Source: Hypericibacter adhaerens (lineage in GTDB: Bacteria; Pseudomonadota; Alphaproteobacteria; Dongiales; Dongiaceae). Taken from it: DNA of 64,000 nt. Both the position numbers and the translations under genes were made by a program. Of this stretch, positions 15,478-32,083 are shown piece after piece (position 1 is the stretch's first letter; each line of letters opens with the position of its first letter). The stretch spans positions 620,001 to 684,000 of the forward strand of contig NZ_CP042582.1 in NCBI RefSeq assembly GCF_008728835.1, written 5' to 3'. The notes under the pieces were generated by a model that saw nothing but the letters and a program-made list of their open reading frames with translations, was not told the DNA's origin and did not search any database.

Positions 15478-16650
15478 ATGAAGCTGTTTCGAAGACTGAC
15501 TTATCTGTTGGCTTTGATTCCCTTGCTGTTGTCCGGCGCGGCAATGGCCGAGGGCTTGGATGAATTGCCGGCCGACCTCGTGGCGAAGCTCTACAACAAG
15601 GACATGCTCGATCCGCAGCAGCCGATCGGGCCGAGCGCCTATCGCGACTGGAAGGCGAAGCGTTCGCCGCCCTGGACCATCGGCTATGCCAGCTCCTATG
15701 CCGGCAACACCTGGCGCGCCATGGCGATGGACCGCCTGCAGAACGAGATCATTCCGAAATGGAAGCAGCTCGGCCTGCTCAAGGACGTGATCATCACCCA
15801 GTCGAACCTGAAGGACGCGGTGCAGATCCAGCAGATCCGCCAGCTCGTCGATCAGGGCGTGGACGCGATCATCGTCTGCTGCTCGAACCCGACCGCGCTC
15901 AACGCCTCGGTCAAATACGCCTATGACAAGGGCGTGCCGGTCTTCTCCTTCACCGGCTACCTGACCTCGCCCTATGCGGTGAATTCCTCGAACAACTACC
16001 AGCTCGGCGGCTATCAGGTCGGCAAGGCGCTGGTCGATCAGCTCGGCGGCAAGGGCAACGTCCTGGTCGTCGAAGGCATCACCGGCACCTCCGGCTCCGA
16101 TTCGCAGGACCGCGGCATGAAGGCGGGCCTGGCCTCCAGCAAGGACATCAAGATCGTCGGCGACGTGGCCGGCATGTGGACCGACCAGATCGGCCAGGCC
16201 GAGGTGCAGAAGTGGCTCGCGACCCATCCGGGCCAGCTCGACGGCATCATCGTCCAGTCGGCGGCGGAGCTGGGCGTGCTGCGCGCGCTCCAGCAGTCGG
16301 GCCGCAAGATGATCCCGATCACCTTCGGCGGCGAGACGGGCGCGCTCTGCTACTGGCGCAAGAACCCGGACTATCTCAAGGAGTCCTATCAGCTGTGGCC
16401 TCCCGGAGACGATATCGAGCTGATCTGGAACATCATGATGCGCACGCTCCAGGGCCAGGGCCCGAAGATCCAGTCGATCCTGGTGGACTCGGTCAAGTTC
16501 ACCTATGACGACGTGAAGACCCGTCTGCCCGAGAACTGCGACGAGAATTCGGACAAGTGGGAGAATGTCGGCATCGAGAATTGGGGCGGGACCAGCTATC
16601 TCGACCAGTTCTTCCTGCATCCGGCCGATCCCGAGAAGTACAAGCCGTAA
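15478..16650 (+). CDS. periplasmic substrate-binding protein of a ribose-type ABC importer (opsin locus)
   Basis: A 390-residue exported binding protein. ATG 15478 is preceded by GGAGGAG at 15464-15470 and followed by a standard signal peptide (RRLTYLLALIPLLL, cleavage after AMA). The first ATG in the frame (15373) is rejected because it lacks a ribosome binding site and precedes the signal peptide. The fold shows in PWTIGYASSYAGNTWRAMA, QLVDQGVDAIIVCCSNP and the hinge segment GTSGSDSQDRGMKAGL. The protein is about 60-80 residues longer than typical ribose-binding proteins, with an extension at each end. It starts the operon that contains the lysine-less opsin; its ligand would be the best clue to the operon's job. 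Confidence 0.9.
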   Translation: MKLFRRLTYLLALIPLLLSGAAMAEGLDELPADLVAKLYNKDMLDPQQPIGPSAYRDWKAKRSPPWTIGYASSYAGNTWRAMAMDRLQNEIIPKWKQLGLLKDVIITQSNLKDAVQIQQIRQLVDQGVDAIIVCCSNPTALNASVKYAYDKGVPVFSFTGYLTSPYAVNSSNNYQLGGYQVGKALVDQLGGKGNVLVVEGITGTSGSDSQDRGMKAGLASSKDIKIVGDVAGMWTDQIGQAEVQKWLATHPGQLDGIIVQSAAELGVLRALQQSGRKMIPITFGGETGALCYWRKNPDYLKESYQLWPPGDDIELIWNIMMRTLQGQGPKIQSILVDSVKFTYDDVKTRLPENCDENSDKWENVGIENWGGTSYLDQFFLHPADPEKYKP

Positions 16651-16665
16651 GACATCGCCCGATCC

Positions 16666-16717: not shown

Positions 16718-18460
16718 ATGGCTTCACCCGTTCAACAAGCATCGACACGCCAGCCCGGCGCCGCGGCCGGAAGCGCTCCGGCGGCGACCCTGGTCTCGCT
16801 CGGCGGCGACATCACCGTCACCGAGGTGCGCAAGACCTTCGGCGTGACGCGCGCGCTCGACGGCTGCAATTTCAGCGCCTCGCTCGGCGAGATCCACGCC
16901 ATCGTCGGCGGCAATGGCTGCGGCAAGAGCACGCTCGCCAAGGTCATGTCCGGCGTCCTGCCGGTCGATTCCGGTAAGGTCTCGGTCGTCGGCCATACCC
17001 CCAGCTCGCCGCACGACGCCCGCCATGCCGGCATCGCCACCGTGTTCCAGGAGGTGCTCGTCGCCGACGAATGCTCGGTCGTCGACAACCTCTATCTCGG
17101 CGCCGACCATCTCTGGTCGAAGACGCTGCCGATGCGGGCGAAGATCCGCGACGCCGAGATCATGATGAAGGAGCTGGCCGCGGTCGACATCGACGTCGAG
17201 GGGCCGGTGGGTCTTCTTCCCCTTTCCATCAAGCAGTGGATCACCATCGGCCGCGCGCTGCTGCAGCGGCCCAAGGTGCTGATCCTCGACGAATCCTCGG
17301 CCGCCCTCGATCTCGATTCGACCGAGCGGCTCTTCGCCAAGATGCGCGAGCTGCGCGACCAGGGATCGGCGGTGCTGATCGTGACGCATCGCATCGCCGA
17401 GCTCATCCGCATCTCCGACCGCGCCACGGTCCTGCGCGACGGGCGCGACGTGGGCGTGCTGAGCAAGGGCGAGATCACCGAGAAGAACCTGCTGGGCCTC
17501 ATGACCGGCCGCAGCGAATCGCCCCATATTACGACGGCGGTGGCGCAGGAGGTGCTGCACCACGACGTCGTCATGAAGACCGGCAAGCTCAAGGTCTGGC
17601 CGGAAAGCCAGCCGATCGATTTCGCGCTCCACAAGGGCGAGGTGCTCGGCATCGCGGGTCTCGACGGCCAGGGGCAGAGCGATTTCGTGACCGTGCTGGC
17701 GGGCGTGCGCAAGGCGGCCGAGGGCTTGCCCATGGTCCGCACCGCCGGCAACGGTTTCACGGAGATCCGGGATCTCCTGGACGCGACGCGCAACGGCGTC
17801 TCCTATGTCTCGGGCGACCGCAAGCGCGAAGGCATCTTCGCGAACATGAGCATCTACGAGAACCTGCTGATGCCGCTCTACCGGCGCCTGGCGCGGGGCG
17901 GGAAGGTGGCGGTCATCGACTGGAGCAGCCTCAGCGCGATCTTCGACTGGGAGGTCGAGCGGCTCGCCGTGCGCATGGGCGAGCGCAGCAACAAGATAAC
18001 CTCGCTCAGCGGCGGCAACCAGCAGAAGGTCCTGATCGGGCGCGCCTTCGCGCTCAATCCGGACATCCTGGTCCTGAACGATCCCGCGCGCGGCGTCGAT
18101 GTCGGCGCCAAGGCCGAGCTCTACAAGCATCTGACCGCCTTCGCCCAGCGCGGCAAGTCGGTCATCTATCTGTCGAGCGAGATCGAGGAGTTCGTCGGCT
18201 TCGCGACCCGCGTCGTGGTGTTCCGCAACGGCAGCATCTTCGACGAGTTCGCCGGCGATGCGATCGAGCCCGCGAACATCCTCGAGGCCATGTTCGGCCA
18301 GGCGCGCGGCAACCGGCGCCAGCGCGAGGACCGTGCCGCGACCCCGGGCGAGGCCCCGCCGGCCCGCCGCAAGGTCAACGGCCTCGTGCCGGGCAGCGCC
18401 GGCCTGCCGCCCTGGATGAGCCGGAACGGCCGCGACTGGCAAGGCACCCCGGGCGAATGA
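16718..18460 (+). CDS. ribose-type ABC transporter ATP-binding protein with atypical active sites
   Basis: A 580-residue tandem ATPase, some 80 residues longer than usual. Domain 1: Walker A GGNGCGKS (64-71, usually GENGAGKS), signature LSIKQ (169-173), Walker B LILDESSAALD and H-loop His 224. Domain 2: the Walker A loop is GLDGQGQSD, without the usual Lys, as is common in this family. The signature LSGGNQQKV is normal, but Walker B reads LVLNDPARGVDVG, so the usual Asp-Glu pair is Asn-Asp. ATG 16718 is used; longer versions overlap the binding-protein gene. There is an unusual charged C-terminal tail. It would pair with the permeases at 18720 and 20182. Confidence 0.88.
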   Translation: MASPVQQASTRQPGAAAGSAPAATLVSLGGDITVTEVRKTFGVTRALDGCNFSASLGEIHAIVGGNGCGKSTLAKVMSGVLPVDSGKVSVVGHTPSSPHDARHAGIATVFQEVLVADECSVVDNLYLGADHLWSKTLPMRAKIRDAEIMMKELAAVDIDVEGPVGLLPLSIKQWITIGRALLQRPKVLILDESSAALDLDSTERLFAKMRELRDQGSAVLIVTHRIAELIRISDRATVLRDGRDVGVLSKGEITEKNLLGLMTGRSESPHITTAVAQEVLHHDVVMKTGKLKVWPESQPIDFALHKGEVLGIAGLDGQGQSDFVTVLAGVRKAAEGLPMVRTAGNGFTEIRDLLDATRNGVSYVSGDRKREGIFANMSIYENLLMPLYRRLARGGKVAVIDWSSLSAIFDWEVERLAVRMGERSNKITSLSGGNQQKVLIGRAFALNPDILVLNDPARGVDVGAKAELYKHLTAFAQRGKSVIYLSSEIEEFVGFATRVVVFRNGSIFDEFAGDAIEPANILEAMFGQARGNRRQREDRAATPGEAPPARRKVNGLVPGSAGLPPWMSRNGRDWQGTPGE

Positions 18461-18541
18461 TCCGCGCAGGCCTCATAGCGGCGCCGCGGCGTCGCGTTTT
18501 GTGTCGGGCAGGGGTGGAATCACGGCAGCGTCACCTTCACT

Positions 18542-18675: not shown

Positions 18676-18719
18676 CAAGAGCGAGCTCGCATCTGCAGCG
18701 CCATGCCGGGGAGGCGCTG

Positions 18720-20165
18720 ATGGCGGCGACCCCCGCTCGTTCCTCCTCGGCCGCCGGCAGCGCCTATCTGCTGGTGCCGATGGTGCTGTTCTTCGCGCTG
18801 CTGATCGTGGCGGTGCTGCGCAGCCAGAGCCTCGTCACCATGGCCGGCCTCGGCAGCGCCATCATCGTCGCGGCGCCCTTGATCCTCGCGACCTATGCGC
18901 TGATGGCCACCGTCATCGCCGGGCGCGGCACCGTCGATCTCTCGATCGGGCCGCTGATCGGCTTCATCAACGTCACGCTGGTGCAGCTCTTCGGCCAGGA
19001 CCTCATCTCCTCGCCGATCGCCTTCTTCCTCTACGCGCTGGCCGTGGGCGTCGCCTATCAGCTCCTGATGGGCCTCATCATCGTCTTCATCCGCGTGCAG
19101 CCGATCATCGTCTCGCTCAGCGGCTACCTGGCGCTCTCGGGCATCAATCTCGTGATCCTCGAGCGCCCGGGCGGCACCGCCCCCGACTGGATGATGAGCT
19201 GGGCCGAGGGCATCTCGATCTTCTCGCCGGTGACGGCGATCCTGATCGTCGCCACGGTGGCCTGGCTGCTCTTCACCCGCACCGCCTTCTACGGCCATCT
19301 GCGGCTGATGGGCTCGGACGAGCGCGCCGCCTTCACCAGCGGCGTGCGCATCAACCTGGTCCGGCTGGGTGCCCATGCGATCTCGGGCCTCTTCGCGGGC
19401 CTCGCGGCGCTCACCTACACCTCGCTGATCAGCTCGGGCGACCCGACCCAGGGCACCACCTATACCCTGATCGCGGTCACGGCGCTGGTGCTGGGCGGCG
19501 CCAGCCTCGCGGGCGGGCGCGGCGGCGCCATCGGCTCGCTGCTCGGCGCCGTCAACATCTATCTGATCACCTTCGTGCTCGCGACCTTCAATTTCGGCGC
19601 GGTGCAGAGCTTCGTGACCGATCTCGCCTACGGCACGATCCTGGTGCTGTCGCTCCTGCTGACGATCGTGCTGCCCTATATCCGCGACGTGGTGCGCAGC
19701 ATCTCGCCGCTGCTCTTCTTCGTGATCCTCTCGATCATTGGGCTCGGCGTCATCATCCACGCCACCTACGACTATTCGGCGCCGCCACCGGCGGCGGCAG
19801 CGGCCGCCTCGACAGGCAGCGGCGAGGCGACGGCCGCCACCGGCACGGCCTCTGCTGCCTCGAGCGCCACGACCGCGCCGGCCGAGACCGCCGCCGGCAC
19901 CGGCTTCATCTTCGAGCAGACCGGCGAGGCCGCGGCGCTCGCCGGCGGCTCGAGCCTGGCCGGACCGCTTGCCGTCGCCGCGCTGCTGATCCTCTCGGTG
20001 CTGGTCATCCTGCGCTCGATGGTGGCACAGGCCGGCCGGGTCCGGACGCTGTCGCCCCTGGTCTATGTCGTCGTCGCGGCCTTCGTCCTGCTGGGCGTCT
20101 ATGTCGCCGCCAATCACGACGTCATCGCGGGCCTGCGCGCGCCGGCGGCCGAGAGCTCGCCGTGA
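18720..20165 (+). CDS. ribose-type ABC transporter permease with long low-complexity C-terminal extension
   Basis: A 481-residue membrane protein. Residues ~15-320 are an RbsC-type core (AGRGTVDLSIGPLIG; LVLGGASLAGGRGGAIGSLL). Beyond the normal end there is another helix (~328-346). Then comes an Ala/Thr/Ser-rich stretch of about 50 residues (~350-400), followed by two more hydrophobic helices (~410-430 and ~440-460). Usual family length is about 320-350. ATG 18720 follows GGGGAGG. It forms the channel together with the permease at 20182. The extension may be a loop or tether to a partner such as the opsin or flotillin, but that is inference. Confidence 0.88.
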   Translation: MAATPARSSSAAGSAYLLVPMVLFFALLIVAVLRSQSLVTMAGLGSAIIVAAPLILATYALMATVIAGRGTVDLSIGPLIGFINVTLVQLFGQDLISSPIAFFLYALAVGVAYQLLMGLIIVFIRVQPIIVSLSGYLALSGINLVILERPGGTAPDWMMSWAEGISIFSPVTAILIVATVAWLLFTRTAFYGHLRLMGSDERAAFTSGVRINLVRLGAHAISGLFAGLAALTYTSLISSGDPTQGTTYTLIAVTALVLGGASLAGGRGGAIGSLLGAVNIYLITFVLATFNFGAVQSFVTDLAYGTILVLSLLLTIVLPYIRDVVRSISPLLFFVILSIIGLGVIIHATYDYSAPPPAAAAAASTGSGEATAATGTASAASSATTAPAETAAGTGFIFEQTGEAAALAGGSSLAGPLAVAALLILSVLVILRSMVAQAGRVRTLSPLVYVVVAAFVLLGVYVAANHDVIAGLRAPAAESSP

Positions 20166-20181
20166 GACGGGGGAGATCGGG

Positions 20182-21576
20182 ATGAGCCAGTCGACCCTCG
20201 CCGCGCTCAAATGGACCGGCCTCGCCGTCGCCTTCATCGTGGCCGGCATCGGGCTCATCTTCGGCTTCTACCAGGGCCTGCCGGCGCAGCAGGTGATCCT
20301 CTATACCGCGGCCACCTTCGCGCTGGTCGCCTGGGCCTGGCGCGCCTTCGCCATGCGCTGGTCGGAGGGAACCAGGACCGCGGCGCCCGAGATCCGCGAT
20401 GCCGACGGCAACCTGGTCGCCCCCTCGGGGCGCGCCGCCTGGCGCGGCTTCGTCCGCAAGAACCGCGCCGTCATCGCGGGATTGATCATCCTGCTGCTCG
20501 TGTTCGGCATCTGCTCGATCACGATCGAGGGCTTCTTCTCGGTCCTCAACATCATCTCGCTCCTGGTGCTGGTGGGCCTGCTCGTCTTCTCCGCCTTCAT
20601 GAGCAAGTTCGTGGTCGAGAACCGCTCGGCCTTCATCGGGCTCACGGTGCTGGTCGGGCTCTTCGTGGTGGGCTCGCTCAAGATCGACGGCTTCATCTAC
20701 CCGGCCAACATCAAGTCGATGCTGCTCTTCGCCTCGTTCCTGGGGCTGGCCTGCGTGGGCCAGACCATGGTGGCGCTTCTGGGCGGCCTCGATCTCTCGA
20801 TCCCCTTCGTCATTGGCGCCGCCAATGTCGGGTTGCTCTACCTGATCGGGCTCGGCATGCCGGGCTGGATCGCGGTCATCATCATCACCCTGGTGGGGGT
20901 GCTGATCGGGCTGCTCAACGGATTCCTGAGTTTCAGGCTTCAGGGCCAAGCCCTGATTCTCACGCTCGGCATCGGCTTCGCCACCTCCGGCATCACCCAG
21001 ATCCTGACCAGCCTGGGCTCGCGCTTCGCCGGCAACGTGTTCGGCGCGGTTCCCGAATGGCTCAGCAACCTCGCGGCCATGAACGGCACCACCTTCGGGC
21101 TCGATTTCCCGCCCGTGATCCTGGTCTGGCTGGTCGTGGCGGCGGCGCTCATCGTCGGCATGAAGAACACGGTCTATGGCCGCTATCTCTATGCGCTGGG
21201 CGGCAACCGCACCTCGGCCTCCCGGCTCTCGATCTCGGAGCGGCGCTACTGGGTCGCGGCCTATGCCATCAGCGGCGGCGTCTCGGCCCTCACCGGCTGC
21301 CTGCTCCTGGGCTGGAGCGGCGGCGGCTTCATCGGCGTCGGCCAGCCCTACCTCTTCATGACGCTGGCGGCCGTGGTGATCGGCGGCACCTCGCTCCTGG
21401 GCGGGGCCGGCGGCTACGGCTTCACCGTGATCGGCGTGCTCGTGCTGCAGGTGCTGACCTCGTTCCTGGTCGGCATCGGCCTGAACTACCAGTGGCAGCA
21501 GTTCATCTTCGGCCTGCTGATCCTGCCCATGGTGGCCCTCTATGCGAGGTCGCCGCATATCCGGACCCAGGTCTAG
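20182..21576 (+). CDS. ribose-type ABC transporter permease with duplicated N-terminal segment
   Basis: A 464-residue permease. The canonical core occupies about residues 165-464 (LGGLDLSIPFVIGAANVG; GGTSLLGGAGGYGFTVIGV). In front lie about 160 extra residues with four or so helices. Residues 93-126 and 146-179 align without gaps (13 of 34 identical; both have ENR/KNR at the start and (E/D)GF....NI.S at the end), so the first unit of the core is duplicated. ATG 20182 has GGGGGAGAT just upstream; the gene follows the previous stop by 16 bases. Partner of the permease at 18720. Confidence 0.88.
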   Translation: MSQSTLAALKWTGLAVAFIVAGIGLIFGFYQGLPAQQVILYTAATFALVAWAWRAFAMRWSEGTRTAAPEIRDADGNLVAPSGRAAWRGFVRKNRAVIAGLIILLLVFGICSITIEGFFSVLNIISLLVLVGLLVFSAFMSKFVVENRSAFIGLTVLVGLFVVGSLKIDGFIYPANIKSMLLFASFLGLACVGQTMVALLGGLDLSIPFVIGAANVGLLYLIGLGMPGWIAVIIITLVGVLIGLLNGFLSFRLQGQALILTLGIGFATSGITQILTSLGSRFAGNVFGAVPEWLSNLAAMNGTTFGLDFPPVILVWLVVAAALIVGMKNTVYGRYLYALGGNRTSASRLSISERRYWVAAYAISGGVSALTGCLLLGWSGGGFIGVGQPYLFMTLAAVVIGGTSLLGGAGGYGFTVIGVLVLQVLTSFLVGIGLNYQWQQFIFGLLILPMVALYARSPHIRTQV

Positions 21577-21630
21577 TTCCGTTTTGCTCGAACGATTGAC
21601 AAGAAAGCGCGTTGCCTCGGGAGGCATCTG

Positions 21631-22332
21631 ATGGAAGTGAAGCTGCTGCAGTCGACCGATGTTACCGGCGGGACATTCACCCTGCTCCTGATCGGCATGA
21701 TCGGCACCGCGGTGCTGCTGTTTCTCGGGACCGGCTGGGTCTCGCGGAAATGGAAGCTCCCGGTGGCGCTGGCCGGCATCGTGGCGATGCTCGCGGCCGC
21801 CTATTACTGGCAGGCGCGCGAGGTCTGGCTGACGGCGGGCCAGATGCCCGTCATCTACCGCTATATCGACTGGCTGATCACCGTGCCGATCCAGGTGCTG
21901 GCGCTCTATTTCTTCATCGGCACCGTGGCGCGCCCGCCCACGGGCCTGTTCTGGCGGCTGCTCGTCGTCGCCATCGTCATGATCCTCGCGCGCTACATGG
22001 GCGAGGTCGGCTTCATGCACCCGACGCTCGGATTCCTGATCGGGATCGTCGGCTGGCTCTACATCCTGGGCGAGGTCTATTTCGGCAAGCTCGGCGAGAT
22101 CAACACGAAGAGCGCCAGCGAGACGGTGCAGACCGGCTTCTTCTGGCTGCGGCTGGTGGTGACGATCGGCTGGGCGATCTATCCGCTCTGCTACTTCATC
22201 GGCAGCTTCGCCGGCGGGGTGGACGAGGGCACCCTCAGCATCGTCTACAACCTCGCCGACTTCATCAACCAGATCCTGTTCGGCCTGATCATCCTCTATG
22301 CGGCCGCGAAGGAATCGGCGACCGCGCGATGA
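21631..22332 (+). CDS. microbial (type 1) opsin lacking the retinal-binding lysine
   Basis: A 233-residue seven-helix protein clearly related to proteorhodopsin. Helix 3 reads YRYIDWLITVP, helix 6 LVVTIGWAIYPLCYF, and helix 7 YNLADFINQILFGLI. By alignment with proteorhodopsin (from memory), Arg77, Asp80, Trp81, Thr84, Trp181, Tyr184, Pro185 and Asp210 match its R94, D97, W98, T101, W197, Y200, P201 and D227. The Schiff-base lysine (K231) is Gln214 (codon CAG, 22270-22272), the proton donor E108 is Ala91 and H75 is Tyr58. The tuning position 105 is Gln88. Lys227 is 13 residues too late to replace it. So it cannot bind retinal covalently in the standard way and is unlikely to be a proton pump. 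Lysine-less opsins are known, but their function is not. It lies 54 bases after the permease and before a flotillin gene. ATG 21631 follows GGGAGG. Confidence 0.95.
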   Translation: MEVKLLQSTDVTGGTFTLLLIGMIGTAVLLFLGTGWVSRKWKLPVALAGIVAMLAAAYYWQAREVWLTAGQMPVIYRYIDWLITVPIQVLALYFFIGTVARPPTGLFWRLLVVAIVMILARYMGEVGFMHPTLGFLIGIVGWLYILGEVYFGKLGEINTKSASETVQTGFFWLRLVVTIGWAIYPLCYFIGSFAGGVDEGTLSIVYNLADFINQILFGLIILYAAAKESATAR

Positions 22333-22451
22333 AACGGACAGAGGTCATGAAGCGACAGCAACCACACCGGCAGCCGCCCGCGCGTCAGTTCGACGGGCCG
22401 GCCTCGGCACGGGACGCGGACCCCGCAGGCCGCCGTCCCGCGAACGATTAG
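22329..22451 (+). CDS. possible 40-residue microprotein coupled to the opsin gene
   Basis: A short open frame whose ATG overlaps the opsin stop (ATGA at 22329-22332) and which ends just before the GGGAGG of the flotillin gene. The product is basic, very polar and rich in Arg, Gln, Pro and Asp, with no helix or known motif. The overlap would allow translational coupling, and the frame fills the gap between the two genes. The composition could equally be chance GC-rich sequence. The function is unknown and whether it is real is uncertain. Confidence 0.3.
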   Translation: MKRTEVMKRQQPHRQPPARQFDGPASARDADPAGRRPAND

Positions 22452-22464
22452 GGAGGAACGACAT

Positions 22465-24165
22465 ATGAACGGCGCAAACATCATTGCCATCATCATTCTG
22501 GCGACGATCGTCATTGCGGTGGCCGTCTATCTGCTGCACTGGCTCTACCGGCGCTCCACGAAGGACATCTCCTTCGTCCGCACCGGCTTCGGCGGCGAGA
22601 AGGTGGTCATGGGCGGCGGCGCCCTGGTGCTGCCGATCGTCCATGACGTGACCGAGGTCAGCATGAACACGCTGCGCCTCGAGGTCCGCCGCGGCAAGGA
22701 GCAGTCGCTCATCACCAAGGACCGCATGCGCGTCGAGGTCACGGTCGAGTTCTTCGTCCGGGTCATGCCGCAGCCCGAGGCGGTCGCGACGGCCGCCCGC
22801 ACGCTGGGACAGCGCACGATGAACCCCGAGAGCCTCAAGGACCTGGTGCAGGGCCGCTTCGTCGACGCGATGGGCATGGTCGCCGCCACCATGACCATGG
22901 AGGAGATGCACGAGCATCGCGGCCGCTACATCAAGGGCGTCAAGGAGCAGGTCGCGGGCTCGCTGACGCAGAACGGCCTGGAGCTGGAGACCGCCTCCCT
23001 CACCAGCCTCGACCAGACCGACATCAAGCTCTTCAACCCCTCCAACGCCTTCGATGCCGAGGGTCTGACCCGCCTGACCGAAGAGATCCAGACCCGCAAG
23101 AAGAAGCGCAACGACATCGAACAGGACACCGCCATCGCGGTCCGGAACAAGAATCTGGAATCGGAGAAGCTGGCGCTCGATATCGACAAGGAGAGCGAGT
23201 ATTCGCGTCTCGAGCAGGAACGCGAGATCGCGCTGCGCCGCGCCCAGCAGAAGGCCGAGATCGCGATCGAGCGCACCGAGCGCGACCGCGAAATCGAGGA
23301 GGCCCAGATCCGGGCCTCCGAGGAGATCGAGCGGGCCCGCATCCGCCAGGAGCGGGTGCTCGAGGCCGAGCGCATCGAGCGCGAGCGGGAGACCGAGAAG
23401 CTCGAGGTGCAGCGTCGCCGCACCCTCGAGATCGAGGAGCAGGAGCGGGTCATCGCGGTGGCCGAGAAGTCGAAGTCGCAGTCCGAGGCCCAGGCCGCCG
23501 CCGAGAAGGCGCGCTCGCTGATGATCGAGGCCCAGGAGAAGGTCACGACCCTGCGCGAGAAGGAGATCGCCGACCGCCGCAAGCTGATCGAGCTTATCGA
23601 CGCCGAGCAGCAGGCGGAGCGCGAGGCGATCAAGCTGACCACCATCGCCGAGGCCGAGAAGAAGGCCGCGATCGAGCGGGCGGCCGCGGACAAGGCGGCG
23701 TCGGACGCCGCCAAATACCGCTACGCGGTCGATGCCGAGGGCCAGCGCGCCCTCAACGAGGCGGAGAATCTCCGTTCCGATGCGAGCCGGCGCTCGGCCT
23801 TGCACCGCCGCCTGGTCGAGAACCTGCCGGAGATCATCCGCGAAAGCGTCAAGCCGATGGAGCGGATCGAATCGATCAAGATCCTCCAGGTCGACGGCCT
23901 GCCGGGCTTGAGCAGCGCCGGCGTCGATGGCGTCATCGCCGGCCCCGGCGGCGGCGACCAGGGCGGCGGCGACGGCGGTCCCAAGGGCCGCAGCCTGGCC
24001 GACAGCGCGGTCAACGCCGCGTTACGCTACCGGGCGCAGGCGCCCTTCGTCGACGACCTGCTGCACCAGATCGGCATCCAGGGCGGCGCCGTGGGCGGGC
24101 TCGGGAACCTGCTCAAGGGCCATGCCGCCACGCCGCCGGAACCCAGCCCGCGCGACAAGAGCTGA
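22465..24165 (+). CDS. flotillin-like SPFH/band-7 membrane scaffold protein (YqiK type)
   Basis: A 566-residue protein: one N-terminal helix (~5-27), an SPFH domain (~30-200, with GGEKVVMGGGALVLP and VFF-type strands), then a long coiled coil (~205-450) of Glu/Arg/Lys heptads. The end has a glycine-rich linker (GPGGGDQGGGDGGPKG) and a short hydrophobic tail. This is the layout of bacterial flotillins, which organise membrane microdomains and oligomerise through the coiled coil. ATG 22465 has GGGAGG 9 bases upstream. The usual NfeD partner is absent; the next gene encodes a four-helix protein instead. Its place right after the opsin suggests it assembles the opsin or transporter in the membrane. 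Confidence 0.92.
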   Translation: MNGANIIAIIILATIVIAVAVYLLHWLYRRSTKDISFVRTGFGGEKVVMGGGALVLPIVHDVTEVSMNTLRLEVRRGKEQSLITKDRMRVEVTVEFFVRVMPQPEAVATAARTLGQRTMNPESLKDLVQGRFVDAMGMVAATMTMEEMHEHRGRYIKGVKEQVAGSLTQNGLELETASLTSLDQTDIKLFNPSNAFDAEGLTRLTEEIQTRKKKRNDIEQDTAIAVRNKNLESEKLALDIDKESEYSRLEQEREIALRRAQQKAEIAIERTERDREIEEAQIRASEEIERARIRQERVLEAERIERERETEKLEVQRRRTLEIEEQERVIAVAEKSKSQSEAQAAAEKARSLMIEAQEKVTTLREKEIADRRKLIELIDAEQQAEREAIKLTTIAEAEKKAAIERAAADKAASDAAKYRYAVDAEGQRALNEAENLRSDASRRSALHRRLVENLPEIIRESVKPMERIESIKILQVDGLPGLSSAGVDGVIAGPGGGDQGGGDGGPKGRSLADSAVNAALRYRAQAPFVDDLLHQIGIQGGAVGGLGNLLKGHAATPPEPSPRDKS

Positions 24166-24199
24166 GGCGGGGCTGCGGCCTTAGCGGCGAGGAGAAACG

Positions 24200-24610
24200 A
24201 TGCTCACCATCAGGCAGACGGAGCGGCGGCTGGCCGTGATCGCGAACTGGGGGCTGTTCGGCACCTTCGGGCTCGGCCTGATCCTGTCGGGCGTCAACGG
24301 CGGCACGATCGCGCTCGGCCTCCTGGGCTTCGCGCTGATCCTGGTGGGGTTCATCGCGCAGGTGATCATCAACCAGGTCTATGGCCGGGGCTTCACCCCC
24401 GGCGAGGTGGCGCTGGGCTTCATCGGCTTCGGCATCGCGGTCCTGGGCTTCGTGGCGAGCTGGATCTTCGATCCGACCTTCGGCACGACCGACATCGTGG
24501 TCGGGCTCTCGGGCTTCGCCGCGATCATCGTCGCCTTCCTCGTCTATCTGGTGACCCGATACGGACTGAAGGGCTCGTTCTCGATGTTCCACCACAGAGG
24601 CCGGCATTGA
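24200..24610 (+). CDS. four-helix membrane protein of unknown function
   Basis: A 136-residue protein with four hydrophobic helices (about 15-33, 38-60, 70-90 and 98-118) joined by short loops, and a basic C-terminus. I do not recognise a family. The helix-2 and helix-3 sections share a Gly-Phe-rich style (LGLLGFALILVGFIAQ, LGFIGFGIAVLGFVAS), suggesting internal duplication. It starts 34 bases after the flotillin stop with GGCGAGGAG as ribosome binding site. Its position resembles that of NfeD-like partners of flotillins, but no OB-fold is present. It may be a membrane partner of the flotillin. Confidence 0.75.
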   Translation: MLTIRQTERRLAVIANWGLFGTFGLGLILSGVNGGTIALGLLGFALILVGFIAQVIINQVYGRGFTPGEVALGFIGFGIAVLGFVASWIFDPTFGTTDIVVGLSGFAAIIVAFLVYLVTRYGLKGSFSMFHHRGRH

Positions 24611-24682
24611 TGCGGCGATCGGCACATCGTCGGCCGGCGTTCCCGCGCGGCGTAGCCGCCTCGGTCGGGGAGGGCCGCCTCC

Positions 24683-26722
24683 TTGTCTGAGAGCGTGATC
24701 TGGCTGCTGGCCTGCGTCGGCGCCTACTGGGCCTATTGCGTCTATTGGGGGGCCGCGAGCGCCAGGCTCGTCGGCACGGCCAACGACTATTTCCTGGCCG
24801 ACCGCGGCATCTCGCCCTGGATCTTCGTGCTGGCCGCGACCGCGACCTCCTTCTCCGGCTGGATCTTCCTCGGCCATCCCGCCTTCATCTTCGAGGACGG
24901 CTTCTCCTTCGCCGAAAGCTCCTTCGCCGCGATCGTGATCCCGCTGACCGGCGTGCTCTTCCTCAAGCGCCAATGGCTGCTCGGCAAGCGCTTCGGCTAT
25001 GTGACGCCGGGCGACATGTTCGCCGACTATTTCGGCAGCGAGGGGATGCGCCGCCTCACCATCCTGATCGCGCTGGTCTTCTCCGTGCCCTTCCTTGCCA
25101 TGCAGCTCACGGCCTCGGGCTTCCTGATCCAGATCCTCTCCGAGGGCACGGTCGACCGTCATGTGGCGATGTGGGTCATGACCGCGGTGCTGTTCCTCTA
25201 TGTCTGCGTCGGCGGCTTCCGCGCGGTCGCCTATGTCGGCACCTTCCAGGGGCTGCTCCTGGCGGCCGGCCTCGCCGCGATCGGGCTCGTCGCCTATGGC
25301 AAGCTGGGCGGCCTGGTGCCGTTCAACGCGGCGCTCGCCAAGCTCGGCGCCAGCGCGCTGGGCGATGGCGGCACCACGGCTGCGGGCTACAACGCCAACC
25401 TCGCGATCCCGGGCGTGGTCCAGTTCACGGCCGGTCTCGGGCAGGAGGCGCCGGTGGGCGGCCATTGGACCGCCTCGATGATCTTGAGCTACAGCTTCGC
25501 GCTGATGGGCATCCAGGCGGCGCCCGCCTTCACCATCTGGGCCTTCGCCTGCCGCAGCGCCAAGGGCTTCGGCATCCAGCAGGTCTGGGCCTCGGCCGCG
25601 GCGGTCGGCGTGATCCTCGTCTTCTTCGCCGTGCTGATCGGCATGGGCGCGCATTTCCTCGGCGCCTCGCCTTCCATGACCGAGGCCGGCATGGCCGTCT
25701 CGATCTGGCTGCCGTCGACCGCGGGCCAGGACCCGGCCAACCTCATCGCCTATTACATCCAGGCGATCGGGAAGAACGATCCCTGGTTCACGGGCCTTCT
25801 CGCCGTCTGCGCGCTGGCGGCGATCCAGGCGATGGTCGCCTTCTACGCCTCGACCGCCGGCACGATCCTGTCGCGCGACGTCTATAAGCGCTATCTCAAC
25901 CCCGCCGCCGGCGACCGCGAGCTCAAGCTCTATGGCCGCATCAGCGTCGGGCTGGTGCTGCTGGCGGCGCTGCTGACGGCCTCCTACCTGCCGCGGACCG
26001 AAAGCGAGCTGGGCGCGCTGGCACTCTCCTTCGGCTTCCAGCTCTGGCCGGCCTTGGCCGCCGTCTGCTGGTTCCCCTGGCTCACCCGCCAGGGCGTGAT
26101 CGTGGGGCTGGTGTTCGGCCTCGTCGCCGTCGTCTTCACCGAACCTTTCGGCCAGTCGATCTCCAGTTTCGTCGGGCTGCATCTGCCCTGGGGCCGCTGG
26201 CCCTGGACGATCCATTCCGCGGCCTGGGGCATGTTCTTCAACCTCGTCACCTGCCTGATCGTGTCGGCCCTGACCTATGGCGGGCCCGAGCGCGCCCATC
26301 GCGCCCGGTTCCACGCTTACCTCGCGGAGAAAGCCGGCGTTGCGCCGGAGCGCCGCCCCTTGCGCGCGGCCGCCTGGGCGATCGCGCTCGCCTGGATCTT
26401 CTTCGCGATCGGGCCGGGCGCGGTCTGGGGCAACGATCTCTTCGGCAAGCCCAATGGCGGCCCGGCCGATTGGGGCCTGAGCCTGCCTTCGATCTGGGCC
26501 TGGCAGATTCTCTGGTGGGCCTTGGGCGTGCTGATGATCTGGCTGCTCGCCTACCGGATGGGGCTCTCCACGGTGCCGCTCGGCAGCGTCGAGTTCCATG
26601 TCGAGCACAAGCCGGCGCCGCTCTCGAAGGCGGCGCTGGCGTCGGACTGGAAGAATTGGTTCTGGGGGCTCGTGATCGCCTTGGCGGCGCTGACGGCCGC
26701 ACATTGGATCTTCGGGCAGTGA
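24683..26722 (+). CDS. sodium:solute symporter (SSS) family protein
   Basis: A 679-residue membrane protein with about 13-14 helices. The N-terminal segments VGTANDYFLADRG and TATSFSGWIFLGHPAFIF (helix 1 region) and the helix-4/5 glycine-rich AGLAAIGLVAYG stretch fit the LeuT-fold SSS family. It is longer than PutP (about 500 residues), with an extended C-terminus. It probably couples Na+ entry to solute uptake; the substrate is unknown. TTG 24683 is used because GGGGAGG lies just upstream; GTG 24695 is an alternative. It is the sixth gene in the same direction after the second binding protein. Confidence 0.88.
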   Translation: MSESVIWLLACVGAYWAYCVYWGAASARLVGTANDYFLADRGISPWIFVLAATATSFSGWIFLGHPAFIFEDGFSFAESSFAAIVIPLTGVLFLKRQWLLGKRFGYVTPGDMFADYFGSEGMRRLTILIALVFSVPFLAMQLTASGFLIQILSEGTVDRHVAMWVMTAVLFLYVCVGGFRAVAYVGTFQGLLLAAGLAAIGLVAYGKLGGLVPFNAALAKLGASALGDGGTTAAGYNANLAIPGVVQFTAGLGQEAPVGGHWTASMILSYSFALMGIQAAPAFTIWAFACRSAKGFGIQQVWASAAAVGVILVFFAVLIGMGAHFLGASPSMTEAGMAVSIWLPSTAGQDPANLIAYYIQAIGKNDPWFTGLLAVCALAAIQAMVAFYASTAGTILSRDVYKRYLNPAAGDRELKLYGRISVGLVLLAALLTASYLPRTESELGALALSFGFQLWPALAAVCWFPWLTRQGVIVGLVFGLVAVVFTEPFGQSISSFVGLHLPWGRWPWTIHSAAWGMFFNLVTCLIVSALTYGGPERAHRARFHAYLAEKAGVAPERRPLRAAAWAIALAWIFFAIGPGAVWGNDLFGKPNGGPADWGLSLPSIWAWQILWWALGVLMIWLLAYRMGLSTVPLGSVEFHVEHKPAPLSKAALASDWKNWFWGLVIALAALTAAHWIFGQ

Positions 26723-26753: not shown

Positions 26754-27911
26754 ATGAAACCGTTCAACTTCAATACCGCGCCCCGGATCGTGTTCGGCGA
26801 GGGCTCGCTCGCCCGCATCGGCGAGATCACGGCCGCCCAGCTCGGCAAGCGCGTGCTGCTGGTGACCGATCCCGGCCTGATCAAGGTCGGGCTGATCGAG
26901 CCGGCGCTGATGTCGCTCGAGGCCGCGGGCGTGGCGGTGTCGCTCTTCTCGGATGTCGAGGCGGATCCGCCGGAGCATGTGGTGATGGCCTGCACCAAGG
27001 TCGCGCAGGACCTGAAGGCGGAGGGCGTGATCGGGCTCGGCGGCGGCTCCTCGATGGATGTCGCCAAGCTCGCGGCGCTGCTGGCGCCGGGCACGGAGAA
27101 GCTCGCCGATGCCTATGGCGTCGGCAACGCCAAGGGGCCGCGCCTGCCGCTCCTGCTGGCGCCGACCACGGCCGGCACCGGCTCCGAGGTGACGCCGGTC
27201 TCGATCGTCACCACCGGCGCCAGCGAGAAGAAGGGCGTGGTCAGCCCGGTGATCCTGCCCGACGTGGCGCTGCTCGATCCGGACCTGACGCTGGGCCTGC
27301 CGCCGGCGGTGACCGCCGCCACCGGCATCGATGCGATGGTCCATGCGATCGAGGCCTATGCCTCGGCCAGCCCCGCCAACAACCCCGTCTCCCGCGCGCT
27401 CGCGCGCGAAGCGCTGCGGCTCATGGGCGCGGCGCTGGAGCGCGCCGTCCATAACGGCAAGGACAAGGCCGCGCGCGGCGACATGCTCCTGGGCGCCATG
27501 CTGGCGGGCCAGGCTTTCGCCAACTCGCCGGTCGCGGCGGTCCATGCGCTGGCTTATCCGCTGGGCGGCCATTATCACATCCCGCACGGCCTCTCGAACG
27601 CGCTGATGCTGCCCCATGTGCTGCGCTTCAACGCCGAGACCTCGTCGGCCGCCTATGTCGAGATCGCGCCCGACGCCTTCCCGGAACTGGAGGAGGTGGG
27701 CAGCCAGGTGCGCGCGGCGGCCTTCGCCGACAAGCTCGCCGGCCTCTCGACCCGCTGCGGGCTGCAGCAGCGCCTGCGCGACGTCGGCATCCCGGCCGAC
27801 GCGGTGCCGATGCTGGCGCGCGACGCGATGAAGCAGACCCGTCTCCTGGTCAACAATCCGCGGCCCGTGACCGAGGCGGACGCGCTGGCGATCTATCAAC
27901 AGGCCTGGTGA
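26754..27911 (+). CDS. iron-type alcohol dehydrogenase
   Basis: A 385-residue group III alcohol dehydrogenase. The cofactor region GLGGGSSMDVAKLAAL (near 94-110), PTTAGTGSEVTPVSI (near 137-152) and the metal-binding HALAYPLGGHYHIPHG (near 263-280) are intact. It probably oxidises an alcohol or reduces an aldehyde with NAD(P). ATG 26754 is preceded by AGGAGG. It closes the long forward-strand run that starts at 15478. A link to the imported compound is likely but not proven. Confidence 0.93.
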   Translation: MKPFNFNTAPRIVFGEGSLARIGEITAAQLGKRVLLVTDPGLIKVGLIEPALMSLEAAGVAVSLFSDVEADPPEHVVMACTKVAQDLKAEGVIGLGGGSSMDVAKLAALLAPGTEKLADAYGVGNAKGPRLPLLLAPTTAGTGSEVTPVSIVTTGASEKKGVVSPVILPDVALLDPDLTLGLPPAVTAATGIDAMVHAIEAYASASPANNPVSRALAREALRLMGAALERAVHNGKDKAARGDMLLGAMLAGQAFANSPVAAVHALAYPLGGHYHIPHGLSNALMLPHVLRFNAETSSAAYVEIAPDAFPELEEVGSQVRAAAFADKLAGLSTRCGLQQRLRDVGIPADAVPMLARDAMKQTRLLVNNPRPVTEADALAIYQQAW

Positions 27912-28606: not shown

Positions 28607-28996
28607 ATGGCAATGGACGTCAAGGGATGGGCGAGCAAATACAAGAGTCTCACGGACAACGACCCGACCATTCAGGCGATGGGCAAATACTATACCTGCA
28701 CGTTCATGTACGACATGGGCGAGCGCAAGGTCATCGTCGAGATGCATGACGGCAAGGTGAAGAACATCAACACCAACCCGCAGCCGCTCGACGCCTACGA
28801 TTTCGCGCTGCGCGCCAGCGCCCAGACCTGGCGCGAGTTCGGCCAGCCGATGCCCAAGCCGATGTTCCACGGCATCTGGTCCGCCAGCTTCCGCGAGGAC
28901 CTCAAGCTCGAGGGCAACCTGCTGGTGCTGATGCAGAACCTGCGGAATTTCACCGTGCAGTTCGAGCTGCTGCGCAAGAGCGGCGTGCCCGTCTAG
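28607..28996 (+). CDS. small SCP2-like protein, function unknown
   Basis: A 129-residue protein. The pattern of alternating strands (YYTCTFMYDMGERKVIVEMHD) and the last part FREDLKLEGNLLVLMQNL resemble the SCP2 sterol/lipid-binding fold, where a lysine-glycine turn precedes the final helix. This is pattern recognition, not a firm assignment. A ribosome binding site (AGAGG) precedes ATG 28607. It is followed after 57 bases by the alpha/beta hydrolase and should be in the same transcript. A lipophilic-ligand carrier for that enzyme is possible. Confidence 0.55.
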   Translation: MAMDVKGWASKYKSLTDNDPTIQAMGKYYTCTFMYDMGERKVIVEMHDGKVKNINTNPQPLDAYDFALRASAQTWREFGQPMPKPMFHGIWSASFREDLKLEGNLLVLMQNLRNFTVQFELLRKSGVPV

Positions 28997-29053: not shown

Positions 29054-29908
29054 ATGGCACGACACTCGCCAGTCACCGGCCGCTACGTCACGATCGATGT
29101 CGACGGCCTCGAGTACAAGGTCTTCTATCTCCATAACGGCCAGGGCCAGCCGCTGGTCTGCCAGCACACGGCCGGCTGCCACAATCATCAGTGGCGCGGC
29201 CTGCTCGAGGACGAGGAGATCACCAAGGACTACAACGTGATCGCCTACGACCTCGCGCGCCACGGCAAGTCCGACCCGCCGCACAATGTCGAATGGTGGA
29301 AGAGCGAGTACAAGCTCACCGCCGAGCACTATGTGAACTTCATCGTGAAGTTCTGCGACGCGCTGGAGCTGAAGAACCCGATCTTCATGGGTTCCTCGTT
29401 CGGCGGCAATGTCGCGCTGCAGCTGGCCCTTCGCCGGCCGGACCGCTTCAAGGCGGTGATCCCGGTCGAGGCGGCCGACTATGCACCGGGCTTCTTCCTC
29501 GACTGGTGGCGCCATCCCCATGCCAATGCGGCGCAGGTCTGCGCGTCCGGCGTGTGGGACCTGATGGCGCCGCAGTCGCCGGAGATGGATCGCTGGCTCA
29601 CCTGGCACTACTACACGCAAGGCTCGGAGGCCTTCAAAGGCGACCTCTATTTCTATTCGGTCGATCACGACCTCCGGAAGCAACTGGCCGACATCGACGG
29701 CAAGCGTTGCCCGGTGGTGATGATGACCGGCACCTACGATTATCTGACGCCGCCCGAGGCGACCGAGAACACGGCCCGCCAGATCAAGAACGGCGTCTAT
29801 ATCGAGATGACCGATATCGGCCATTTCCCGATGAGCGAGAACTATCCGCTGTTCCGGGTCTATCTGAAGGAAGCCTTGCGGATCATCCGCGAGCGGACCG
29901 GCGGCTGA
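29054..29908 (+). CDS. alpha/beta hydrolase
   Basis: A 284-residue alpha/beta hydrolase. The nucleophile elbow GSSFGG contains Ser115 (G-x-S-x-G at 113-117). An oxyanion-forming HTAGCHNHQW segment follows strand 3, and the C-terminal catalytic His is likely in DIGHFPMSEN. The acidic residue is probably the Asp in MTGTYDYLTP. It may cleave a C-C or ester bond. It lies between the SCP2-like gene and the lactonase gene, which suggests a small pathway degrading an ester or lactone. Confidence 0.9.
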   Translation: MARHSPVTGRYVTIDVDGLEYKVFYLHNGQGQPLVCQHTAGCHNHQWRGLLEDEEITKDYNVIAYDLARHGKSDPPHNVEWWKSEYKLTAEHYVNFIVKFCDALELKNPIFMGSSFGGNVALQLALRRPDRFKAVIPVEAADYAPGFFLDWWRHPHANAAQVCASGVWDLMAPQSPEMDRWLTWHYYTQGSEAFKGDLYFYSVDHDLRKQLADIDGKRCPVVMMTGTYDYLTPPEATENTARQIKNGVYIEMTDIGHFPMSENYPLFRVYLKEALRIIRERTGG

Positions 29909-29994: not shown

Positions 29995-31068
29995 ATGAAG
30001 ATCGTCGATTTCGCCAAGGACCAGGGCGGCAGCAAGAATGGCGGGAACGCCCGCCCCGATCGGATGAAGATCCTCGAGTTCGGCGACGGTGCGAACAAGG
30101 CGCGCATCGCCCCGGCGATCGAGGTCAGGCCCGCGGCCGCGCCGGCCCCGGAACCGCGCTGGGAGCCGGTATCGGCCCCGACGGCGAGCCTCGCGGCTGC
30201 GCCCAAGCCGAAGGCGCGCAGCCCCTTCGTCGGCACCCGGTCGCTCAAGATGCATGTGCTCGATCTGGGCAAGCTCCGGCTCGACAAGAACTTCATGGTG
30301 GCCAACTCGACCGTGGCCATGGCGAAGAATCCCAACCCGCCGGGCAAGCTGATCGATATCCCGGTCTCCGCCTTCTATATCGAGCATCCGGACGGCAACG
30401 TCCTGTTCGACACCGGCTGCCATCCCGACTGGGCCGGGCCGAACGGCCGCTGGCCGCAGAATCTCCAGGATGTCTTCCCGGTGATCGGCCCCGACGATTG
30501 CTACCTGCCGCACCGGCTCGAGGCGATGGGCATCGGTCCCAACCAGATCCGGCATGTGGTCCTGTCGCATCTCCATTGCGACCATGCGGGCTGCATCGAG
30601 TTCTTCCGCAAGTCGAACATCATCGTGCATGAGGACGAGTTCGCCGCGGCCGCGACCCACTATGCCAAGCGCGACCACAGCACGCCCTATGCGCTCCGCG
30701 ATTTCGAGACCTGGACCCGGCTCGATCTCAACTGGCGCGAGGTCGGAAAGCTCGAGCCCGATCACAACATCGTCGACGGGGTGAAGCTCCTGAATTTCGG
30801 CCCCGGCCATTCCTACGGGATGCTGGGCCTGCTGGTCTCGCTGCGCGACAACCCCAACGTGATCCTGGCGGCCGATGCCTGCTACACGTCGGAGAATTAC
30901 GGGCCACCGATGAAGCCGCCGGGCATCAGCTACGATTCCATCGGCTTCGCCCGCACCATCCAGCGGATCCGGGCGCTCGCCGAGCACAACAAGGCCGACG
31001 TCTGGTTCGGCCACGACATCCCGCAGTTCGAATCGCTGCGCAAGGCGTCGGAAGGCTGGTACGAGTAA
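29995..31068 (+). CDS. metallo-beta-lactamase-fold lactonase (N-acyl-homoserine-lactonase-like)
   Basis: A 357-residue protein with the dinuclear zinc motif HLHCDH at 192-197 and later metal ligands (PGHSYGMLG; LAADACYTSENYG; GHDIPQFE). These match the AHL lactonases of the AiiA/AttM group, which open lactone rings and can quench quorum signals. An N-terminal extension of about 80 residues rich in Ala and Pro is not part of the fold; an internal start (MHVLDLGKL near residue 85) would give the canonical length. ATG 29995 follows a modest AGGATGAGG. The neighbouring IclR regulator could control it. The true substrate is not known. Confidence 0.88.
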   Translation: MKIVDFAKDQGGSKNGGNARPDRMKILEFGDGANKARIAPAIEVRPAAAPAPEPRWEPVSAPTASLAAAPKPKARSPFVGTRSLKMHVLDLGKLRLDKNFMVANSTVAMAKNPNPPGKLIDIPVSAFYIEHPDGNVLFDTGCHPDWAGPNGRWPQNLQDVFPVIGPDDCYLPHRLEAMGIGPNQIRHVVLSHLHCDHAGCIEFFRKSNIIVHEDEFAAAATHYAKRDHSTPYALRDFETWTRLDLNWREVGKLEPDHNIVDGVKLLNFGPGHSYGMLGLLVSLRDNPNVILAADACYTSENYGPPMKPPGISYDSIGFARTIQRIRALAEHNKADVWFGHDIPQFESLRKASEGWYE

Positions 31069-31264: not shown

Positions 31265-32083
31265 GTGCCGGAATTCGGATCGAAGAAGCAGCTCACCAAA
31301 TTGCCGTTGGCCAGCGAAAAGGGCGTTCCCGCCCTGATCCGCGGCAGCCGGGTGCTCGATGCCGTGGTGGCGTCGGACCAGCCGCTGACCGTCTCGGATC
31401 TCGCGCGCCGGTTGAACCTGCCCAAGAGCACCGTCCACGGTCTCTGCGGCACGCTGGTCGATCTGGGGCTGCTCTCGCGGCGCAACGGGAATTTCCTGAT
31501 CGGGCCGCATGTGATGCGCTGGGCCAACGCGTTCCTGGCCCAGACCGACCTGACGGCCGAGTTCGCGGCGCTGTGGGACAATCTCGCTGTCCTCTCCAAC
31601 GAGACCATCACGCTCTCGGTGCTCGACGGGGCCGAGGTCGTCTATATCGCCTGCCGCAACAGCTCTTCCTCGCTGGGCATCACCTTCCGCATCGGCATGC
31701 GGCTGCCGGCGCCCTTCACCGCGACCGGCAAGTCGATCCTGAGCACGATGCCGGACGCGCAGGTGCGCAAGCTCCTGGCCGGCCATTGGCCCAAGCCATT
31801 GACGCGCCGCTCCGTGCAGAACATCGATGCGCTGATCGGCGAGCTCGACGAATGCCGGCGCCGCGGCTTCTCGATCGATGACGGCCAGACGCGCGAGGGC
31901 ATGTATTGCTTCGGCACGCCGGTGCGCGATTCCTCGAACCAGGTGGTGGCGGGCGTGGCGGTGAGCCTGCTCGCGACCCGCGTCGACGAGCACACCACGG
32001 AGCTCGCGGCCGAAAGCATCCAGACCATCGCCCACCAGCTCTCGATGCGCCTCGGCGCCGACATGAAGAAGCTGCAGGCGTGA
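31265..32083 (+). CDS. IclR family transcriptional regulator
   Basis: A 272-residue regulator: winged helix-turn-helix near residues 24-75 (LTVSDLARRLNLPKSTVHG), then the GAF-like effector domain with the family end pattern NQVVAGVAVSLLATRVDEH. GTG 31265 is the start. The gene is in the same orientation as, and 196 bases after, the lactonase gene, so it may regulate the 28607-31068 genes and itself. The inducer is unknown. Confidence 0.92.
   Translation: MPEFGSKKQLTKLPLASEKGVPALIRGSRVLDAVVASDQPLTVSDLARRLNLPKSTVHGLCGTLVDLGLLSRRNGNFLIGPHVMRWANAFLAQTDLTAEFAALWDNLAVLSNETITLSVLDGAEVVYIACRNSSSSLGITFRIGMRLPAPFTATGKSILSTMPDAQVRKLLAGHWPKPLTRRSVQNIDALIGELDECRRRGFSIDDGQTREGMYCFGTPVRDSSNQVVAGVAVSLLATRVDEHTTELAAESIQTIAHQLSMRLGADMKKLQA

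Follow-up and report, generated by a model that had tools for sequence, protein, structure and literature searches.

A lysine-less FArhodopsin-type opsin encoded between an ABC importer and a flotillin in Hypericibacter adhaerens

The opsin gene and its operon

We examined a 64,000-nucleotide stretch of Hypericibacter adhaerens DNA (contig NZ_CP042582.1, positions 620,001 to 684,000), here called the window, in which a complete ABC importer, composed of a binding protein, an ATPase and two permeases (P1 and P2), lies directly upstream of an opsin gene that is followed by a flotillin gene (Table 1). Between the end of P2 and the start of the opsin lie 54 bases. A scan of positions 15200-32200 was uninformative: it returned no promoter-like sites and 12 terminator-like sites against 6.1 expected, with none of the latter in 21576-21631 or 22332-22465.

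Table 1 Genes of the opsin cassette, with positions counted from the first base of the window.
Feature	Position	Strand	Evidence or remark
Importer substrate-binding protein (Peripla_BP_4)	15478..16650	+	PF13407 8.6e-38
ABC ATPase, two nucleotide-binding domains	16772..18460 (stretch as searched; start codon not fixed)	+	PF00005, two stretches
Permease P1, BPD_transp_2 core with C-terminal extension of ~150 aa	18720..20165	+	PF02653
Permease P2, BPD_transp_2 core with N-terminal extension of ~140 aa, four extra predicted helices	20182..21576	+	PF02653
Proteorhodopsin-like opsin, lysine-less FArhodopsin type	21631..22332	+	233 aa; Gln214, Arg121
Flotillin (SPFH and Flot domains)	22465..24165	+	PF15975 9.9e-33, PF01145 8.4e-14
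Small hydrophobic protein, no Pfam/NCBIfam match	24200..24610	+	Homologue in 59/80 surveyed loci
Sodium:solute symporter family protein	24683..26722	+	PF00474 3.4e-25
Iron-containing alcohol dehydrogenase (Fe-ADH), kin to 4-hydroxybutyrate dehydrogenase among others	26754..27911	+	PF00465/PF25137
4HBT-type thioesterase, opposite strand within the cassette, between Fe-ADH and the 129-aa protein	27935-28420	-	
Conserved 129-aa protein, no family	28607..28996	+	Homologue in 61/80 loci
Alpha/beta hydrolase	29054..29908	+	PF00561 2.4e-20; homologue in 61/80 loci
Metallo-beta-lactamase-fold lactonase, AhlS/AttM type	29995..31068	+	PF00753
IclR-family regulator	31265..32083	+	PF01614 5.1e-34, PF09339

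The opsin frame was free of stops over 233 aa and matched PF01036 in a profile search (E = 2.4e-31; score 109 bits, cut-off 24.6). Codon 214 (22270-22272) is CAG, which places glutamine at the Schiff-base lysine position, and helix 7 reads YNLADFINQILFGL where canonical proteorhodopsin has YNLADIINKIAFGL in the alignment. The intact frame, the codon and a Gln at the same site in the orthologous opsin of a same-genus genome (G001, 88% identical) confirmed the replacement of the retinal lysine, which was the core of the original prediction made from the sequence of the window. Ala91 for the donor glutamate and Tyr58 for the histidine of proteorhodopsin were likewise as claimed in the alignment. 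The further statement that the rest of the pocket is almost entirely retained was correct for the eight residues named (Arg77, Asp80, Trp81, Thr84, Trp181, Tyr184, Pro185 and Asp210 were all present) but overlooked Arg121, where proteorhodopsin has Gly. A sequencing error at codon 214 was considered and is unlikely, because Gln also occurs in G001 and 61 of 67 relatives lack the lysine.

An AlphaFold2 model, proposed as a check of the prediction, gave a confident seven-helix fold (pLDDT 92.9, pTM 0.90). Its top PDB matches were entries 9r21 and 9r23 of PsFAR, a solved flotillin-associated rhodopsin (TM 0.95), followed by proteorhodopsins, and 9r21 was the nearest entry by sequence as well as by fold. 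The window opsin is a lysine-less member of the FArhodopsins (FARs), the flotillin-associated rhodopsins of Haro-Moreno et al. 2023 (PMC10308929), and thus of a known kind.

The binding protein of the window was 68% identical to its paralogue in a second locus of the same genome (L003) and 92% to that of G001, and its best PDB relatives were CUT2-type sugar-binding proteins. Against NF058672 the Fe-ADH scored 243 bits, below the cut-off of 500, and this was not its top NCBIfam match, while the lactonase scored 353 bits against NF047976 (cut-off 475) and 129 bits against NF045700 (cut-off 390). The L003 operon runs parallel to that of the window and contains a second lysine-less opsin at about C1:944,700-945,430 (C1:944760-945425; L003:8698-9432), which was 38% identical to the window opsin and had Leu at the lysine site, Gly for Asp80 and Val for Thr84. 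The ATPase frame of this operon (L003:2254-4437) ends in a phosphatidylethanolamine-binding-protein domain (PF01161). Neither opsin nor flotillin was detected at a third related importer of the genome (L133).

Distribution, residue pattern and ancestry

Relatives were collected by scanning ~85,000 species genomes with an alignment of the binding protein. There were 219 pattern matches and 107 relatives, and 80 loci were retained. An opsin was detected in 68 of the 80. We set apart the loci with an ATPase, P2 at ≥45% identity and 2.5 kb or more of contig past P2; all 65 of them had both opsin and flotillin in a full ABC-importer operon, and none of the 12 loci without opsin belonged to this set. 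Gene order was P2-opsin-flotillin in 67/67 loci. By record or MAG name, the relatives belonged to Alpha-, Beta- and Gammaproteobacteria, unplaced Proteobacteria and one Desulfobacterales MAG, and their records carry soil, root, sponge and groundwater names. When the window's class was sampled evenly, the binding protein was found at E ≤ 1e-60 in 7 of 385 genomes including the window's own; four of the other six had an opsin (L134, L137, L138 and L139, of which the last three are identical or almost identical to L031, L035 and L038) and the stretch was too short in two (L135 and L136). The wider binding-protein family also occurred in 60 plasmid records, 46 of them from Rhizobium and many from Phaseolus vulgaris, while the opsin itself was limited to 6 plasmid records. 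In L134, a locus with a lysine-bearing FAR from a genome of 1.4 Mb, the flotillin was followed by a homologue of the 129-aa protein (72% identical over 76 aa).

Extended permeases accompanied the opsin. Permeases of the opsin-less homologues L133, L149 and L150 measure 324-341 aa, compared to 481 and 464 aa in the window. Length itself was dropped as a marker because first-Met frame lengths are unreliable in GC-rich DNA (468 and 719 in the extension-less L136, 280 for P2 of L071), so sequence match to the extensions was used instead. Among 83 loci with both permeases, 76 had the opsin and both extensions, two (L047 and L134) had the opsin but only the extension of P2, and four (L133, L136, L149 and L150) had neither extension nor detected opsin, while L026 was cut by a contig end. 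The opsin-less controls are few, as the L136 contig stops where the opsin would be and L149 and L150 are close relatives. A model of P2 placed four helices ahead of the core, at modest quality (pLDDT 72.8, pTM 0.64).

The residue at the lysine site was Arg in 34, Leu in 14, Gln in 10, Lys in 6, Glu in 2 and Thr in 1 of the 67 readable opsins, with one more truncated, so that the Gln for which the prediction had proposed searching relatives recurred in 10/67 and a residue other than Lys in 61/67. Five residues, Trp36, Phe94, Arg121, Phe151 and Trp172, were each present in all 64 lysine-less rows of the alignment and in 0/13 lysine-bearing rows, and Phe171 in 63/64 and 1/13, respectively. Position 121 was Gly in 5/5 proteorhodopsins and Ala (6/8) or Gly (2/8) in lysine-bearing FARs. 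One turn further, position 125 was Glu (49/64) or Asp (15/64) in the lysine-less rows, Glu in 5/5 proteorhodopsins and Ala in 8/8 lysine-bearing FARs. Trp81, Trp181, Tyr184, Pro185, Asp210 and Asn213 were invariant or nearly so.

We take Arg121 to correspond to Gly122 of bacteriorhodopsin beside the ionone ring, and thus to lie at the ring end of retinal. Together with the loss of Asp80 and Thr84 within the lysine-less clade, where they remain in 4/64 and 15/64 rows, this leaves the earlier suggestion of a pocket preserved for a retinoid unsupported. Summed pocket side-chain volume averaged 2391 in lysine-less opsins, 2309 in proteorhodopsins and 2225 in lysine-bearing FARs, a weak argument for a filled pocket, so the pocket argument rests on Arg121. 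Trp36, Phe94, Phe151, Phe171 and Trp172 presumably face the cytoplasmic side, given general microbial rhodopsin topology, and mark a place where a partner protein could sit. Arg121 of the window opsin aligns with Glu120 of PsFAR; going by the PDB title and our alignment, the PsFAR double mutant H84V/E120G alters the residues aligned with Val85 and Arg121.

In the opsin tree (77 rows), the 64 lysine-less rows, representing 61 loci, two opsins of the window genome and one of G001, formed one clade (100/100); lysine-bearing FARs branched outside this clade, and proteorhodopsins further out. The FAR clade of 72 rows was separate from the five proteorhodopsin-type rows (100/97). On this tree, the sequences indicate that the lysine was lost once and never regained, with the direction of change depending on rooting with proteorhodopsins or with opsin-less importers. 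The residue at the site changed at least seven times, and L025 has Leu too, elsewhere on the tree than the Leu subclade. When three importer proteins were combined in a tree (39 chosen rows, 1323 columns), opsin-less importers came first and lysine-bearing FARs next, followed by a single lysine-less clade (31 rows, SH-aLRT 97) in which the Leu subclade adjoined L062. The two trees therefore concur in a single lysine-less clade and in the position of the Leu subclade beside L062. A PF01161-like stretch after the ATPase occurred in 19 loci (14 Leu-subclade loci, L062 and four others), a distribution that fits the three-protein tree. Two independent losses of the lysine were rejected, as they were hinted at only by a quick tree of the ATPase, which placed the Leu subclade outside the group with lysine-bearing FARs and conflicts with the concatenated tree.

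Opsin genes were under purifying selection, with dN/dS of 0.014-0.241 in all 25 close pairs (23 lysine-less and 2 lysine-bearing pairs, chosen greedily without overlap at 75-99.5% identity and dS <2.5) and 0.204 for the window opsin compared with the G001 orthologue. These values agree with the original view that selection maintains the protein for a different function and that the gene is not decaying. A pseudogene was rejected, given dN/dS <0.25, the Gln in G001 and the fact that the reading frame closes with a stop inside the contig, at 227-255 aa, in 67 of 68 relatives, the remaining one running off its contig end.

Retinal supply, cargo and candidate roles

We assessed the presence of other rhodopsins and of retinal synthesis in 50 of the 67 genomes of the relatives, together with the window genome (G000) and G001, giving 52 genomes that include cultured isolates and many draft MAGs. 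Outside the opsin-importer cassettes, no PF01036 rhodopsin was found in 51 of them; the exception was G107 (locus L091), in which a canonical rhodopsin and the retinal-synthesis gene Blh both occur. The sole PF01036 match of G110 was its FAR-type gene, which fell under the cut-off. The window genome, a single contig that is 99.5% complete, had two PF01036 genes, both of FAR type, and no pump. No match to heliorhodopsin (PF18761) was obtained in the 52 genomes, which proves little since the same search was blank in all 14 control genomes.

Blh (PF15461) exceeded the cut-off in three of the 52 genomes (G097, partial, G102 and G107), was below it in G076, and was found neither in the window genome nor in the six lysine-bearing genomes; the control search was positive in 2/3 proteorhodopsin genomes. 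Lycopene cyclase (PF05834), the one cyclase family searched, was looked for in 12 genomes and gave long matches (at least 277 of 380 positions) only in G024, G046, G102 and G107. The remaining genomes (G000, G001 and the six with lysine-bearing FARs) had short N-terminal matches (at most 69/380 positions). The earlier statement that the window holds no retinal-synthesis gene thus extended to the whole genome for Blh and for long PF05834 matches, with one carotenoid-oxygenase-family gene elsewhere (C1:2020479-2021819; L154). This gene was under all curated cut-offs and lay between apocarotenoid- and lignostilbene-type models. On these results a retinal route is conceivable at most. Six loci with lysine-bearing FARs (L031, L033, L035, L037, L038 and L047) are in genomes with neither another PF01036 match nor Blh, and their opsins are either retinal scavengers or blind despite the lysine.

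Genes surrounding the operon bear on what the importer may carry. At 48 loci of at least 21 kb, with flanks ending at 10 kb, we found the hydrolase in 41, the 129-aa protein in 40, the lactonase and the IclR regulator in 26 each, Fe-ADH in 20 and succinate-semialdehyde dehydrogenase (SSADH) in 3. On annotated plasmids from Martelella, Hoeflea and Pararhizobium, the opsin operon is surrounded by an IclR regulator, the hydrolase, an 'AttM' lactonase and Fe-ADH, and in Martelella also by SSADH. SSADH was not found in the window, where lactonase, Fe-ADH and IclR are present. Opsin-less homologues of Rhizobium etli p42d (L149) and Agrobacterium have SSADH downstream of them, and the opsin-less sister importers L133 and L149 combine short permeases with this gene. 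We take the activities around the opsin operon to be those of BlcABC/AttKLM. This is the gamma-butyrolactone pathway of Agrobacterium (PMC5924552). The cargo is therefore perhaps a lactone, ester or hydroxy acid. It may differ among subgroups, and, with lactonase and IclR near only 26/48 long loci and SSADH near 3/48, it may not suit all members.

Taken with the linkage above, we consider that the opsin is a retinal-independent ('blind') accessory membrane subunit of the CUT2-like ABC importer, linking the importer with a flotillin microdomain, with a probability of roughly 0.58. The opsin, probably an oligomer like the solved proteorhodopsins and PsFAR, would dock on the extra permease helices and on flotillin and would thereby gather or stabilise the importer in the microdomain; the importer would take up a small lactone, ester or hydroxy acid that the hydrolase, lactonase and Fe-ADH of the cassette would break down. 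Genomic linkage is what suggests contact between opsin, permease and flotillin. Of the roles listed in the original prediction, 'structural partner of the transporter' fits best, given the 65/65 operons, the permease extensions and the agreement of the trees, while its retinoid pocket is not supported. The broader proposal, that a microbial opsin serves across Alpha-, Beta- and Gammaproteobacteria as an obligate light-independent importer subunit, bound to co-gained permease helices and linked to its own flotillin, is more tentative and falls somewhat short of even odds.

Other roles can be weighed against the same data. A possible one, with perhaps a minor share of the probability, is that the old retinal cavity has become a binding site for a lipid, fatty acid or the transported compound, making the opsin a ligand sensor or regulator that alters importer activity in the manner of a GPCR-like allosteric subunit. 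The near-invariant Trp81, Trp181, Tyr184, Pro185, Asp210 and Asn213 suggest a shaped cavity, retinal-free proteorhodopsin is described with decanoate in its chromophore pocket (PMC11322631), and non-light sensing has been proposed in the text by the FAR authors (PMC10308929) and by Becker et al. 2016 (PMC4915679). Arg121 and the Glu or Asp at position 125 may, however, fill part of that cavity, the lysine-site residue varies (Arg, Gln, Leu, Glu, Thr), and no dedicated transducer gene was seen in the annotated cassettes. It is unlikely that the opsin is a membrane organiser or flotillin anchor only, with the importer a mere passenger of the operon: flotillin adjoins the opsin in 67/67 loci, in line with the microdomain idea in the text of the FAR authors (PMC10308929), but this leaves unexplained why extra permease segments occur only in opsin-bearing operons, with few controls, and why the opsin tree agrees with that of the three transporter proteins.

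A residual light function, in which retinal or another carotenoid derivative is bound non-covalently, seems very improbable. The opsin has no lysine and has Arg121 at the assumed ring end in 64/64 rows, and the window genome, G001 and the six lysine-bearing genomes gave only short PF05834 matches, even though Trp81, Trp181 and Tyr184 are retained. A carotenoid oxygenase occurs in G000, G001 and 5/6 lysine-bearing genomes, but in none of the 23 other lysine-less genomes searched (including those of L084 and L091) and in neither of two proteorhodopsin genomes, and the G000 copy is below all curated cut-offs. Light function with scavenged or home-made retinal is disfavoured by the lack of Blh, the short cyclase matches and the sub-cut-off oxygenase. 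The published view, in which a FArhodopsin aids a proton-pumping proteorhodopsin of the same cell through a heterocomplex in flotillin microdomains, is the least credible for these loci. A co-resident proteorhodopsin is reported for marine single-cell genomes (PMC10308929), and one of the 52 genomes surveyed, G107 (L091), has a canonical rhodopsin with Blh. Against this, 51/52 genomes lack PF01036 outside the cassettes, which speaks against the proton-pump-helper idea for the lysine-less clade, and 49/52 lack Blh above the cut-off, many being draft MAGs; the 99.5% complete, single-contig window genome has two FAR-type opsins and no pump, and no heliorhodopsin was found in the 52, though that search was silent in controls too.

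Comparison with known systems

Lysine-less opsins are not unique to the window, as such FArhodopsins, Gln among them, are already published. As described in the text of PMC10308929, they come from freshwater metagenomes, where Gln, Thr, Leu or Arg occupies the lysine site in most FArhodopsins, whereas marine FArhodopsins keep the lysine, with a DTT, DTL or DNI motif, and occur in single-cell genomes with a co-resident proteorhodopsin. The window opsin shares with published FArhodopsins its proteorhodopsin-group affinity, a flotillin gene that follows on the same strand, and, with the freshwater type, its Gln; published clusters, as far as their descriptions extend, also hold a membrane translocator, Na symporter, alpha/beta hydrolases and Fe-ADH. 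In contrast, its motif is DTA (Asp80-Thr84-Ala91; Gly-Val-Ala in the paralogue) instead of the marine DTT/DTL/DNI, its 5.9-Mb genome is non-streamlined and without a co-resident proteorhodopsin, and it differs from published FArhodopsins in a complete ABC importer with extended permeases and in Arg121 throughout the lysine-less clade. From a proteorhodopsin pump it departs in having Gln214 for the Schiff-base lysine, Ala91 for the donor Glu and a genome in which neither Blh nor a long PF05834 match was found.

Opsins without the lysine are known from other settings. Rh-noK (Yamauchi et al. 2019, as cited in PMC10308929) is a xanthorhodopsin-related rhodopsin without the retinal lysine, encoded in tandem with a proteorhodopsin gene; the window opsin shares the lack of lysine but is proteorhodopsin/FAR-like and has no second PF01036 gene nearby. 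The lysine-less halobacterial and fungal opsin-related proteins of Becker et al. 2016 (PMC4915679) include, in the text available, neither a flotillin nor a rhizobial case. With BlcABC/AttKLM the surroundings of the opsin operon have in common an AttM-type lactonase, Fe-ADH, an IclR-type regulator and, in Martelella, SSADH, whereas the accessible descriptions of BlcABC (PMC5924552) mention no opsin or flotillin and the lactonase was not found at 22/48 long opsin loci.

We found no account of an opsin as an ABC-importer component in the literature covered (bioRxiv, most subscription journals and the supplementary tables of PMC10308929 were outside its scope). As far as this literature goes, the new elements are the absence of another PF01036 rhodopsin in 51/52 genomes, the constant importer setting, the permease extensions, the single old loss of the lysine, and Arg121. 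In the text of PMC10308929, the FAR authors could not tell whether genomes of lysine-less members hold further rhodopsins, a point that our survey answers for 52 genomes, in all but one of which no other PF01036 rhodopsin was found. The importer-subunit reading offers an alternative to the pump-helper idea that is testable in isolates; if true, the opsin fold would be long-lived without light, its work done by interfaces instead of a chromophore, and a rhodopsin fold would serve substrate uptake. A precedent for a flotillin-dependent ABC importer is described for IsdF and FloA of Staphylococcus aureus (PMC10147376).
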